This document shows positions 30,763 through 35,711 of a stretch of DNA of 64,000 bases, piece by piece. Source of the stretch: Moritella viscosa (GTDB taxonomy: Bacteria > Pseudomonadota > Gammaproteobacteria > Enterobacterales > Moritellaceae); assembly GCA_000953735.1 (NCBI GenBank), contig LN554852.1, forward strand, positions 3,731,846 through 3,795,845, in the 5' to 3' direction. How positions within the stretch are numbered: the stretch's first letter is position 1; every line of letters begins with the position of its first letter. The notes beneath the pieces are model-generated. The model was not told the DNA's origin. It was given only the letters and a program-made list of their open reading frames with translations, and did no database searches. The translations under genes and the position numbers were made by a program.

Positions 30763-31902
30763 TTACTCGAAGTGCCAGTAACCTAAGTTTACCCATTCAA
30801 TCAACAGTTGACCAAAAACTTTATCTTCCATTAATACTTCAAGTTCTTTAGCTGACTGTTCAGTAGTGTTACATAACGTCTGTACACTTGCCGCAATGCT
30901 GGCATCAAAATCATAACGCTCGCCATCGATAAAGCAACTCGTTGGCATCTCAGGGAAGTATAATGTCTTCAATCCATTCACTTTACGCAAATAAGATTCC
31001 ATGCCAATTTCATCTAACACAATCGCATAATCCGCAATGTAACCACCTTCAGGTGCCACTAAATCTAATTCGTGTGCAGATTCACTGTAATGACGACCAA
31101 GGAAATCATGCATAACGCTTTTATCAGCCATTAATGATGTCATGATGTCTGTTAAACCTTGTACTTCGCCTGATTCGATAGAACCGTGCTGAGTACGTGG
31201 TTGTAACTTAGGATCGCTATAACGAACAAACTCTTTGTCTTGTTGCAATAGGTAATCACCAAAGTCGTTTAGCAGCTCTTTTTGATCTTGTGCGCGAAAA
31301 CCAACTGAGTAGTTAATCGCTTCGCCAACAGCATAACCTTCATGCGGAGCATAAGGTGGAATATATAAAATATCACCAGGTTCTAATACGGTATCAATAA
31401 CAGCATCAAACGCTTCACAATGCTTCAGAGCACCGTTCGCAGCAAACTCTTGAGGATTCATATCTTGAGCACCCACACGCCAATGACGCTTGCCTAAGCC
31501 TTGAATAATGAATACACAATAACGATCGATATGCGGGCCTACACCACCAGTATCAGTGCTGTAAGAAACCATCAGATCATCAAAGCGCCAGCTAGGAATA
31601 AAATTAAACGTATTCGCTAATTCAGCAGAAGGATCATGCCAGTGATTAATCGCTTGCACTAGAATCGCAGCGCCTGGTTTTTCCATACGTTCAAAGTCAG
31701 TAAACGGACCGCACTTCGCTTCCCATTTACCTTCTTCACGTGAAACCATACGTGATGTAATTTCTTCTTCCATCGCTAAACCAGCAATTTCATCCGGGCT
31801 GATTGGATCGATAAAGTCCTTGAATCCCGCTTTAATTAACAGTGGTTTTTTCTGCCAATAATTTTCCATGAAGTCAGCAATATCAAGATTTAATTTATAC
31901 AT
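30763..31902 (-). CDS. roxA: 50S ribosomal protein L16 3-hydroxylase (arginine), JmjC-type 2OG oxygenase
   Basis: 379 residues from the ATG at 31902; the open frame has a TTG two codons earlier. Homologous to E. coli YcfD/RoxA: the YWQKKPLLIKAGF and DPISPDEIAGLAMEEE N-terminus, the JmjC iron-binding HxD in GPHIDRYCVF (H124, D126), the distal His in YIPPYAPHEGYA, and a C-terminal dimerisation/winged-helix region. It hydroxylates an arginine of L16 in an oxygen-dependent way. Stands alone, with its own terminator, next to the EF-G2 gene in convergent orientation. Confidence 0.94.
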   Translation of the reverse strand: MYKLNLDIADFMENYWQKKPLLIKAGFKDFIDPISPDEIAGLAMEEEITSRMVSREEGKWEAKCGPFTDFERMEKPGAAILVQAINHWHDPSAELANTFNFIPSWRFDDLMVSYSTDTGGVGPHIDRYCVFIIQGLGKRHWRVGAQDMNPQEFAANGALKHCEAFDAVIDTVLEPGDILYIPPYAPHEGYAVGEAINYSVGFRAQDQKELLNDFGDYLLQQDKEFVRYSDPKLQPRTQHGSIESGEVQGLTDIMTSLMADKSVMHDFLGRHYSESAHELDLVAPEGGYIADYAIVLDEIGMESYLRKVNGLKTLYFPEMPTSCFIDGERYDFDASIAASVQTLCNTTEQSAKELEVLMEDKVFGQLLIEWVNLGYWHFE

Positions 31903-32065
31903 AGTCAACCCGCATTCAATAATCGAAGTAATAGAGCGCGTATCATAGGTATTTTACTGATAATAGCAACAAAAAAAATCCCAAGGAATGGGACATTGCA
32001 TTAAGTACTGTAGGCCAAATATTAGTTCAATGAACTAGACCGGGTCTCACGATCAGAGTAAGAAA

Positions 32066-32476
32066 CTATTTAAGTAAAGAACGAAGACCCTCTTTTCTAT
32101 TGAAGTCTACAGTTTTTAAACAATTCCCTATCACATCTAATCTATCCGGATATTTAACGACTTGCTCTAAAATAAGGCAAGAAGAGTAATACTTTGTATA
32201 ACGTTTATAATTGTCCGATGAAACAGAGCTAAATTTCATCTTTGATTTTTCAATACACTTCTGAGCAGCATTATTTAATTCAACTAAACACTGCTTTTGA
32301 GTTATTCCAAAACAAGTTGAATACTCAGGCTGATCACAGAACAAAGATGGAGCATTTTCGTTTAACTTTTCCATTACAACTTCAATAACAACTTCAATAA
32401 CAACTTCATCTTGGTTATTGCTCATAGTACAACCAATAAGTAATAAAGCCAAAGTAGCAGTAACGTAATGCTTCAT
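32066..32476 (-). CDS. Small predicted lipoprotein of unknown function
   Basis: 136 residues. Signal peptide with a lipobox LIGC (Cys16), then a short repeat Glu-Val-Val-Ile made by a 12-base tandem duplication, then a helical domain with six more cysteines (CDQPEYSTCFG, KQCLVEL, KCIEKS, SSCLILEQ, GNCLKT) that likely form disulfides in the periplasm. No family recognised. It lies 57 bases downstream of the Sel1-repeat lipoprotein on the same strand, so the two are probably co-transcribed and could act together. Confidence 0.7.
   Translation of the reverse strand: MKHYVTATLALLLIGCTMSNNQDEVVIEVVIEVVMEKLNENAPSLFCDQPEYSTCFGITQKQCLVELNNAAQKCIEKSKMKFSSVSSDNYKRYTKYYSSCLILEQVVKYPDRLDVIGNCLKTVDFNRKEGLRSLLK
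32378..32408. repeat. 12-bp tandem repeat inside the small lipoprotein gene
   Basis: Unit AACTTCAATAAC, 2.6 copies, in frame with the gene; each unit adds Val-Val-Ile-Glu to the protein. Confidence 0.85.
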
Positions 32477-32533
32477 GAATTTATCCTATTAAAATTTTCA
32501 AGCCAATGACTAAGTTAAACATAAATTTTAAGT

Positions 32534-33538
32534 TTAAATACCGTCTAGGTATTTCAATCTTCTTTTCGCTTTAAGGTAGCCTTGCTCTGCTGCTTTGCTG
32601 TACCAAATTAAGGCTTCACTATTATTTTTAGTTACTCCGAGTCCCTTTTTATACATATCTCCAAGATTGGTTTGTGCATAGATATTTTCCTGTTCGGCTG
32701 CCTTACGATACCAATTTATCGCATCACTGTAACTCTGAGCGACGCCATGTCCGGTTTCATACATAATACCAAGACTATTTTGCCCTCTGGCATCCCCCTG
32801 TTCTGCAGCCTTGCGATACCAACTTACCGCTTCGTTGTAATTCTGAGTAACACCTTGTCCTTGATCGTACATATTACCAAGATTTGTTTGTCCCCTTGCA
32901 TAACCCTGCTCTGCGGCCTTGCGATACCAACTTACAGCTTCACTGTAACTGTACACGACAGCAAGTCCTTCTTCGTACATATAACCAAGATTTGTTTGCC
33001 CTCTGACATCTCCTTGCTCAGCCGCCTTACGATACCAATTTACCGCTTCGCTGTAGCTTTGAGTAACACCTAGCCCATCTTCATACATTTCACCAAGGTT
33101 ATTTTGCGCTTGAGCATGGCCCTGCTCAGCCGCCTCACGATACCAAGTTATTGCATAACTGTAACTCTGAGCAATACCACGTCCATATTTGTACATAAGA
33201 CCAAGATTTAATTGCGCGATCGCGTAGCCCTGTTCAGCCGCCTTGCGATACCAAATTATCGCTTCGCTATAACTCTGAGTAACACCGAGCCCGTCTTCGT
33301 ACATATAACCAAGGAATATTTGCGCTCGAGCATAACCCTGTTCAGCAGATTTTCGGTACAAACTTGCAGCTTGGCTATAGTTCTGGAGAACACCGTCACC
33401 GTAATAATATTTATGCGCTAAATTATACTGTAAAGAAGCCAGACTCTGTTCTGCAGTTCCTGACGTTTCATTCGTGTTTGAACAACCAGAAAGTATAAGA
33501 AAGGCAGCAAGAGTGACAATTAATAAATTACATTTCAC
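32534..33538 (-). CDS. Sel1-repeat (SLR/TPR-like) lipoprotein
   Basis: 334 residues. Signal peptide with lipobox LSGC (Cys19), then eight consecutive Sel1-like repeats of 36 residues from about residue 36, each of the form A-Q-x-N-L-G-x-M-Y-x-x-G-x-G-V-x-Q-(S/N)-Y-(S/N)-x-A-x-x-W-Y-R-K-A-A-E-Q-G. The repeats form an alpha-solenoid used for protein-protein contact. The DNA repeats are similar at 108-base spacing. Lipid anchoring places it in the periplasm. The partner is unknown; the small lipoprotein downstream is a candidate. Confidence 0.9.
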   Translation of the reverse strand: MKCNLLIVTLAAFLILSGCSNTNETSGTAEQSLASLQYNLAHKYYYGDGVLQNYSQAASLYRKSAEQGYARAQIFLGYMYEDGLGVTQSYSEAIIWYRKAAEQGYAIAQLNLGLMYKYGRGIAQSYSYAITWYREAAEQGHAQAQNNLGEMYEDGLGVTQSYSEAVNWYRKAAEQGDVRGQTNLGYMYEEGLAVVYSYSEAVSWYRKAAEQGYARGQTNLGNMYDQGQGVTQNYNEAVSWYRKAAEQGDARGQNSLGIMYETGHGVAQSYSDAINWYRKAAEQENIYAQTNLGDMYKKGLGVTKNNSEALIWYSKAAEQGYLKAKRRLKYLDGI

Positions 33539-33651
33539 TATAAATCCTTTTGCGTGATGATGACTTTAAACTGTGAAACGAAGTGAAAAAAAGCCTGTGT
33601 TAATACCAGCCAATAGCATCCATTATAGATGAATTTACTGGCATTATTAAT

Positions 33652-33897
33652 ATGAAAAATCCACAACAAACACAATTTAATTATCTTTATGAACAACACC
33701 TTATCAATTAAACAGCATAAGGTAAACGGTTAACGACTATTGGTAATTATTCTTAGCTAATTTAATGCATTTCAGCTTATTTTGATAAATATCCCAAGGG
33801 TTTAACTACGATGAATTTAAAGGGAGACTCCAATAGCCTAATTCAGACACACTCATGGTGTACCGCCATTACGCAGATGGTTATAGTAGCCCTTTAG
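33652..33897 (+). pseudogene. Decayed N-terminal part of a tyrosine recombinase (phage/transposon-type integrase)
   Basis: ATG at 33652 followed by MKNPQQTQFNYLYEQHLIN, then stop codons at codons 20, 23, 35 and 38, with readable protein between them: GKRLTTIGNYS, CISAYFDKYPKGLTTMNLK and LIQTHSWCTAI. Read through the stops this follows the N-terminal SAM-like domain of integrases that start M-K-N-P-x-x-x-x-F-x-x-L-Y-E-Q-H-L-x-N-L-x-L-Q-G-K-R-P-x-T-I-x-x-Y-S-R-A and go on to Y-F-D and S-H-S-W-S-T. Frame is kept for about 73 codons; the catalytic domain is missing. The family match is from memory of such proteins. Confidence 0.65.
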
Positions 33898-34349
33898 AAG
33901 GAGTCAACTGCACATCCATAAAAATATGCTTTTGCTCATGATGAATTTTTAAGTGGGGGGGAGTAAGAATGTAATATAAAACTTAAACAACGCACCGAAT
34001 CAATCAATAGCTAAAAAGAAAGATATATATTTTTTACATAAAAATTACTAATATTCAGCACGTAATTATCTCTACAAGGCCTTATTTAAAACGGTGTTGA
34101 CTAATTTATAGCGTTAATCGAATAGGTAATTTAATTACCTCATAATTATCAGCGTCTTTGGATACATAAATGAGCATTGCGTCTTGAATATACAAGCTAA
34201 CGTTCTCTTACAGCTTTCAATTTTTTGCACATAACCCTTTCCTATTTTAGCCCACATAGATAAAAGTAACGATGCTGCTGCGCTTGAACACTACACAATG
34301 AATGAGACTAACGATAAGCTCTAGTTAGGAAAAAATACGACAAAGAATT

Positions 34350-34389
34350 AAAATCCCCGTGGATATTATATAACATAATTTCCACGGGG
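34350..34389 (-). terminator. Rho-independent terminator of the ccm operon
   Basis: CCCCGTGGA (34355-34363) pairs with TCCACGGGG (34381-34389), 9 bp plus an AT-rich inner stem; on the minus strand it is followed by ATTTTAA. It lies just past the ccmI stop. Confidence 0.8.
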
Positions 34390-34442
34390 CTTATTAACAA
34401 GCAATAACACAGGGTTACAAACTTGGTAACACCATGATTAAA

Positions 34443-35711
34443 TTAACGACTAAAATTAAGCATCACTGAACGTGAATCGCCTTCATTAAGCGTCACAATA
34501 TTACTATTGATGTCATCATCTTTCGTCATCACATTCTCATCTTGAGAAAGCTTAGCACTCACTTTAATCGATGGGAATTGTGACATTTTCATTTGCTCCA
34601 TCATCGCATCACTATCTGATAATGAGATAGTTAATGGAAATGTTGGGTTCGTGACACGTTTAACAGCCAGTGGCGCTTTAGGGCCAACTGCCGCTTGAAC
34701 GTAAACATACAGATAGCCTTTAAGCTGCGTTTGGTCAGCTGTAATAGTGATTGTAACTTGCTCATTACCCACAGCGGCTTCATTTGCGGCTGCTACAGGT
34801 CGGCTATCAGTTGCAGTATCAACTACAGCTGGTGCAGTACCACCTTTCGCTTCAATCTGTTTTCTTGCATATTCAATACTACCTTGAATCATCTCGATAC
34901 GATCTGGTTGGCCAGTAAGTAACGGTAACATACGTTGCCATTGCTCAATTGCGCCAAGGTAATCTTGGTTTTCTAACGCCATGAAAGCAGAAGTAGATAA
35001 TACTTCGATATCGCCAGGTTTCTCTTTTTTAAGATCCATCAATATTTTACGTGCTAAGTTATTTTTATCAGGATCATCACTCAGCATTAATGCTTGCGCA
35101 TAACCCGTCACGATTGATGTGTTCATCGGTGCTAATTTATAAGCACGGTCCATTGCAATGAATGCCGCGTTTGGATCACCTAAAGCAACGTTTAGACGAC
35201 CCAATAATAACCAACCAAATTCATTATCCGACTCTTCTATCATCTTAGTCGTCAATGCTAGTTTAAAGTCGGAGATCTCTTGATCAGTAACTATATCACC
35301 TTCATTCATTACGCGATTTGTTAGCTCAGGTAAACGTGAATATACATCTTCCCAGTTAGCTACCTTTTCACGAGCACCTAATGTCATGTACAAAGCCACA
35401 GAAAAGACCACTAAAAACACAACACCAGCAAGCCAGATGAATGGTGAGTCAGCGGTATTTTCTTTTTCCACTTTCTCATCAATAACGTCATCCAGTAGAC
35501 CACGTTGCATTTCATCAATAAACTCTTCGCTTTTATCTAACAAGCCTTGATCTTCATCGTCAGCTAATTCGCTAATACGACTTTTATAAAGGTCTTTGTT
35601 TAATTGGTCTCGTGTCGCGCCTGTTAACTTGCTCTCACCCGTAACAGGAATAACAAATGCCAGCGCGGCAACAATCACCAATACAATACTTACTATCCAA
35701 AATAACAACAT
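34443..35711 (-). CDS. ccmI: Cytochrome c maturation protein CcmI (TPR)
   Basis: 422 residues. Two N-terminal membrane helices (about 1-25 and 92-112) enclose a cytoplasmic loop with a leucine-zipper-like charged segment. A periplasmic TPR domain (about 150-290) binds apocytochrome c, and there is a beta-rich C-terminal domain. As part of the CcmFHI module it presents apocytochrome to the haem ligation site. Last gene of the ccm operon, starting 2 bases after the ccmH stop. Confidence 0.93.
   Translation of the reverse strand: MLLFWIVSIVLVIVAALAFVIPVTGESKLTGATRDQLNKDLYKSRISELADDEDQGLLDKSEEFIDEMQRGLLDDVIDEKVEKENTADSPFIWLAGVVFLVVFSVALYMTLGAREKVANWEDVYSRLPELTNRVMNEGDIVTDQEISDFKLALTTKMIEESDNEFGWLLLGRLNVALGDPNAAFIAMDRAYKLAPMNTSIVTGYAQALMLSDDPDKNNLARKILMDLKKEKPGDIEVLSTSAFMALENQDYLGAIEQWQRMLPLLTGQPDRIEMIQGSIEYARKQIEAKGGTAPAVVDTATDSRPVAAANEAAVGNEQVTITITADQTQLKGYLYVYVQAAVGPKAPLAVKRVTNPTFPLTISLSDSDAMMEQMKMSQFPSIKVSAKLSQDENVMTKDDDINSNIVTLNEGDSRSVMLNFSR

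Follow-up and report, generated by a model that had tools for sequence, protein, structure and literature searches.

The window, a stretch of 64,000 nucleotides of the Moritella viscosa genome (C1:3731846-3795845, in a genome of 5.09 Mb), contains a truncated and apparently inert fragment from a known kind of mobile element, located between a Sel1-repeat lipoprotein gene and a ccmI-like gene. We consider this region to be old mobile-element debris and give a probability of about 0.85 to the following account. A two-gene element, with a tyrosine recombinase followed by an IS91-family Y2 transposase, would have landed on the upstream side of the Sel1 gene, where the interval between ccmI and a RoxA-like gene is variable; it may have been complete or already shortened by an internal deletion. 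A MITE with IS1634-family ends would later have entered the recombinase gene near codon 71. The right part would then have been lost, including the remainder of the gene, any transposase and the right ends of both elements, and the surviving relic would have accumulated stop codons since. What is observed is the homology, the stops, the truncation point, the second repeat and the absence from this locus in ten relatives. The features are as follows, in window positions:

32534-33538, minus strand: Sel1-repeat lipoprotein gene, start codon toward the relic (Pfam Sel1, E 1.1e-87).
33571-33581, plus strand: possible remnant of the left terminus; 8 of its 11 bases agree with the conserved end (alignment, by eye).
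33582-33651, plus strand: 5' untranslated part of the element's left end (blastn of 33582-33865 against L010, 74%, and alignment).
33652-33864, plus strand: integrase relic, the N-terminal 71 codons of the tyrosine recombinase of an IS91-type two-gene element (60-62% identity to own-genome copies, and plasmid homology).
33863 to about 34075, plus strand: MITE-like repeat, truncated or decayed (73% to L065 and L066; left inverted repeat 33863-33876).
34271-34330, plus strand: probable scrap of a different, phage-type integrase, 20 codons with one stop (homology to L116 and L113).
34443-35711, minus strand: ccmI-like gene, 3' end toward the relic (ORF list; named after the "ccm" of the first-pass annotation).

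The first-pass annotation had read the plus-strand frame 33652-33897 as about 73 codons of a decayed integrase. The translation agrees with it on four in-frame stops, at codons 20, 23, 35 and 38; a fifth, at codon 82, lies past the integrase sequence. The N-terminal integrase sequence itself extends to codon 71 (33864), with no frameshift across its 213 bp. Similarity ends at 33864/33865, and what follows in the frame, 33 bp from 33865 to 33897, is not integrase. The read-through translation, with stops as X, was searched against the M. viscosa genome, giving seven matches including itself. Three copies without a stop inside the match have 60-61% identity to residues 1-72 of the translation: C1:1338933, the best match (61%, residues 1-72, E 2.9e-23), C1:2993693 (60%, E 8.1e-22) and C1:2990261 (60%, E 1.6e-21). 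Two weaker partial matches have one stop each (E 2.4e-4 and 0.0037), and the remaining one is at chance level (E 0.49). An alignment across the stops had been set beforehand as the test of the integrase reading, and the best of these own-genome alignments is clearly significant; the residues that had been named at the four stops (Leu, Gln and two Arg) are also consistent with it. None of the own-genome copies is a full-length integrase. Among the matches listed, two full-length integrases of this family are found in the genus, both in G010. Seven plasmid records also match the relic, with 29-52% identity (E 3e-12 for the best, 2e-2 for the weakest). Two of the plasmid integrases (L008 and L009), each followed by an IS91 transposase, have 49-52% identity.

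Profile scans of the fragment alone gave no recombinase family in Pfam, NCBIfam or PHROGs (one unrelated sub-threshold match in Pfam, zero in the other two), so its identity as an integrase comes from direct comparison with its relatives. The L008 integrase matches PF13495 (E 1.8e-19) and also PF00589 in Pfam. Through homology to this protein, sequence of the N-terminal SAM-like core-binding domain (PF13495) is present in the relic. When integrase and transposase queries were compared by tblastn with positions 31900-34450, the sole significant place was 33652-33864, which matches query residues 1-71; all other matches have E values of 0.4 or higher. No significant C-terminal integrase homology, corresponding to the catalytic domain, is found in this region, and the Y2 transposase with its zinc-binding domain gives only a 29-residue match (E 0.69). 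The relic has no recognisable coding product now.

In its relatives, the gene of the relic stands at the head of an IS91-family element with two genes, an integrase followed by a Y2 transposase. This is the arrangement in the two plasmid loci we have opened, L008 from a Photobacterium plasmid and L009 from an E. coli IncC plasmid, and the genes overlap by 4 bp in both. The L008 transposase contains PF04986 (Y2_Tnp) and PF14319, and both L008 and L009 match NCBIfam NF033538. The order is kept in L010, a copy in the M. viscosa genome, where the integrase is broken into two frames and the transposase has, near its 3' end, an inserted pair of IS3-type ORFs (labelled from the ORF sequences). The relic shares the N-terminal integrase sequence with the integrase-bearing elements of both plasmids, and with the Moritella copies it also shares the noncoding stretch of the left end. 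Unlike all of them, it lacks the catalytic domain, the transposase and the right end. Homology and the context of these relatives both support the earlier proposal that a decayed tyrosine-recombinase gene marks a former mobile-element insertion.

The DNA similarity between the relic and L010 (33582-33865, 74% over 288 columns) includes 70 bp ahead of the start codon, so the relic is the left end of an element of this kind. Element DNA begins to the left of the integrase frame, at 33582 or slightly earlier. The conserved terminus of the element in its relatives is TTGTTGAACGAAGC; the match in the window, at 33571, is poor at best, and the left end of the relic shows no clear terminal hairpin. 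The region upstream of a Sel1 paralogue (L078) is similar to the window as far as 33570, which places the insertion point probably close to 33571.

Internally deleted copies of this element are abundant in Moritella. About 30 of the matches listed, with the relic excluded, are confined to the first 72 integrase codons (counted by eye; a few may belong to larger copies that are split). We dropped the idea of a special N-terminal element behind these matches, since many of those examined carry adjoining right-end sequence. Those copies, for example L077 at 10502 and 12666, L170 and L173, are therefore internal deletions. For other copies a left piece was found with no adjoining right end (L163, L166, L169, L172, L174, L175, L079, L080 and L084, for example). 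Break points of the copies range from about position 175 to 417 of the element, that is, from about codon 26 to 107 of the integrase. Left and right ends are found side by side at L077 10502-11226, L077 12666-13332, L071, L072, L170 and L173. Some break points are recurrent in deleted copies, about 218/1831 and about 253/954 in element positions, suggesting amplified shortened derivatives.

The decay of the relic had been attributed to simple point mutation. The stops are indeed present, but the gene is also cut at codon 71, where a second element starts that had been overlooked, and the remainder of the gene is missing. This second element is a MITE-like repeat whose terminal repeat directly abuts the integrase sequence. 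From 33863 it has 70-73% identity to repeats in relatives, one of which (L065) sits between genes, and it is matched in 8 of the 11 genomes of the genus at E <= 0.001, in some as short pieces only. Two copies in G010 (L065 and L066) have 274 bp, with CCGACATTCCGCAC at both ends. The left inverted repeat of the copy in the window (33863-33876) has 3 mismatches to it, and no second match was found in the gap when up to 3 mismatches were allowed. The same 14-bp end (CCGACATTCCGCAC) flanks an element of 1820 bp, with five pairs at such spacing in G010; the one that was opened (L162, G010:C1:1286400-1288500) codes for an IS1634-family transposase. The MITE which interrupts the relic therefore has the terminal inverted repeat of a Moritella IS1634-family insertion sequence, from which it differs in having a hardly similar interior and, in the window, no right inverted repeat. 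Since there is hardly any internal similarity, the kinship between both elements rests on their shared ends. In 34067-34345, a continuation or a right end of either element gave scores no better than shuffles, so the loss of the right part is an assumption of our account. The order of events and the entry of the MITE by transposition are also inferred. The possibility that the second repeat is the right end of the integrase element was rejected: L008-L011 have no match to this repeat, and its own inverted repeats also rule this out.

Nonsynonymous to synonymous ratios (pN/pS) between the relic and the three own-genome copies are 0.52, 0.58 and 0.59, compared with 0.07, 0.14, 0.27 and 0.35 in four comparisons among other copies (simple counts, with stops scored as nonsynonymous). 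The values of the relic fit relaxed constraint over part of its divergence. As they are 0.5-0.6, and not 1, part of the divergence would have arisen under constraint, before decay.

As the Sel1 gene is read from the minus strand, the relic is on the 5' side of its start, upstream and not downstream of it as had been described. The Sel1 start and the ccmI stop are 904 bp apart, and relic and MITE together fill about 500 bp of this gap. The ccmI-like protein has one match in each of the ten other genomes of the genus, with 85-93% identity, and the ccmI and RoxA-like matches are adjacent in 11 of 11 genomes. The interval between them has 2537 bp in M. viscosa, 161, 173 and 178 bp in G010, G008 and G002, respectively, 1079-1161 bp in G001, G003, G005, G006 and G007, 2496 bp in G004 and 3377 bp in G009. 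DNA similarity between the window and each of the ten relatives ends at 31969-31996 and restarts at 34325-34350, and no similarity to the relic is found at this locus in any of the ten. Conservation of the stops in many strains had been named as grounds against the integrase reading; in this comparison across species, all ten lack the relic here. In the three intervals for which we have ORF lists (G003, G004 and G009), there is an ORF of 252-263 amino acids, apparently of one family by eye. The intervals of G004 and G009 also contain an ORF which we take to be patatin-like. Relatives of the Sel1 gene are found at other places in the genus. Judged by DNA similarity, the Sel1 gene, a small neighbour and the debris at this locus appear to be particular to M. 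viscosa among the 11 species compared. The interval (31970-34350) is a variable spot across Moritella where mobile DNA lands.

A third mobile fragment, also overlooked by the first-pass annotation, is perhaps present at 34271-34330, near the 3' region of ccmI. It is probably a scrap of a phage-type integrase, unrelated to the relic: It has 65% identity to L116 over 20 amino acids (E 1.4e-5) and 60% to L113 (E 0.002), both in a search space of 2.5 kb. Three relatives have DNA matches to it, at five places in all, the best with E 2.1e-6 when a whole relative genome was searched; four of these places encode integrases of 341-359 amino acids and one a 70 amino acid frame. The relatives of 341-359 amino acids are found in G003, G004 and G009. 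Other signals in this region are few. An Rfam search of 33400-34500 gave one match, far below the gathering score, and terminators were not above shuffles. An inverted repeat at 34355-34389, downstream of ccmI (CCCCGTGGA ... TCCACGGGG), is similar in relatives and is perhaps the ccmI terminator; its loop is longer than the terminator scan permits, and it was not reported by the scan.

Several other explanations may be considered. One is a narrower form of our account, in which the inserted element was not a full one but already a miniature with an internal deletion, and the relic is its left half. The N-terminal-only copies which are so common in the genus, about 30 by eye among the matches listed, and those in which left and right ends adjoin (L077 at 10502 and 12666, L170 and L173) speak for it. 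Nothing is decisive against it: Given the range of break points, the end of the relic at codon 71 fits either form. We regard a miniature origin as quite possible, somewhat short of even odds. It is also conceivable that the integrase fragment was joined to a MITE already present by deletion or recombination, instead of transposition. As neither the right end of the MITE nor the remainder of the integrase is present, a deletion must have happened somewhere. Nevertheless, it is at the terminal inverted repeat of the MITE that the two parts meet, a position that random deletion would seldom produce, and no match spanning both parts was found among the matches listed in ten relatives. We think this unlikely.

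Co-option of the relic, for example as a promoter or 5' region of the Sel1 gene, would agree with its place directly upstream of the Sel1 start, with similarity to the upstream region of the Sel1 paralogue stopping about where the relic starts, and with a minus-strand promoter-like site at 33650-33622. However, the five promoter-like sites found compare with 5.3 expected from shuffles, and the arrangement is found in no relative; we consider such a role improbable. Finally, the resemblance to integrases might be due to chance, as could be thought from the lack of a Pfam, NCBIfam or PHROGs recombinase match for the fragment itself. The protein match to an own-genome gene (E 2.9e-23) and the 74% DNA identity over 288 columns, which include noncoding sequence before the start, refute this idea, and we give it practically no weight. 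The account which we prefer is still the insertion of the IS91-type element or its derivative, later interrupted by the MITE.

The live relatives of the relic show an association with integron attC sites. Our sample consists of 29 left ends from Moritella, Vibrio and the two plasmids, all with distinct flanks and an exact copy of the motif. An inverse attC core-like motif is present 50-125 bp upstream in 18 of them; 500 mononucleotide shuffles gave 2.3 on average and 8 at most. Three of the 11 left ends without the motif (L004, L008 and L009) have AACGC just inside 50 bp in the printed sequences. At distinct right ends the next bases are GTTA in 23 of 24 cases and GCTA in the other one, although the search pattern already demanded the G. 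These ends come from loci found via the element, favour well-kept ends and include related copies, so the counts are indicative only. The L009 element splits what we take to be the attC of aadA1. In the M. viscosa genome, the L011 locus (G000:C1:2985500-2999500) contains three integrase and IS91-transposase copies among small minus-strand ORFs with attC-like sequences. The copies are opposite in orientation to the ORF array, and at least two of the three are internally deleted. An integron integrase is found close to L011, at L121 17903-18889 (TIGR02249, 399.8 bits, cut-off 265). This integrase and the array of small ORFs point to a chromosomal integron, and L011 is likely to be one invaded by the element. 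On the Sel1-side flank of the relic, no attC-like motif is found by the rule which 18 of the 29 left ends pass.

There is a printed precedent for an association between IS91 and attC. In the available excerpts of a Shewanella survey, one IS91-like element, ISShvi3, adjoins an attC, and no insertion sequence interrupting an attC is reported (PMC9229058). Going by this description, many relatives of the relic resemble ISShvi3 in being IS91-like and next to an attC, and it might belong to the same subgroup; the relic itself is not at an attC. Another article, as far as its excerpts go, deals with other elements (PMC9345347). In the literature searched, we have found no account of IS91-type elements that carry a tyrosine recombinase of their own and are specific for attC. 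The ancestor of the relic might belong to such a subgroup, which would target attC sites (GTTA in the outer box, in one orientation) and spawn deleted derivatives across Moritella, the relic being an insertion outside an integron. We see this proposal as evenly balanced between right and wrong.

In summary, the live relatives of the relic look like parasites of integron cassette sites which carry a second recombinase. These attC-dwelling relatives, with their many deleted copies, are a better lead than the relic itself.
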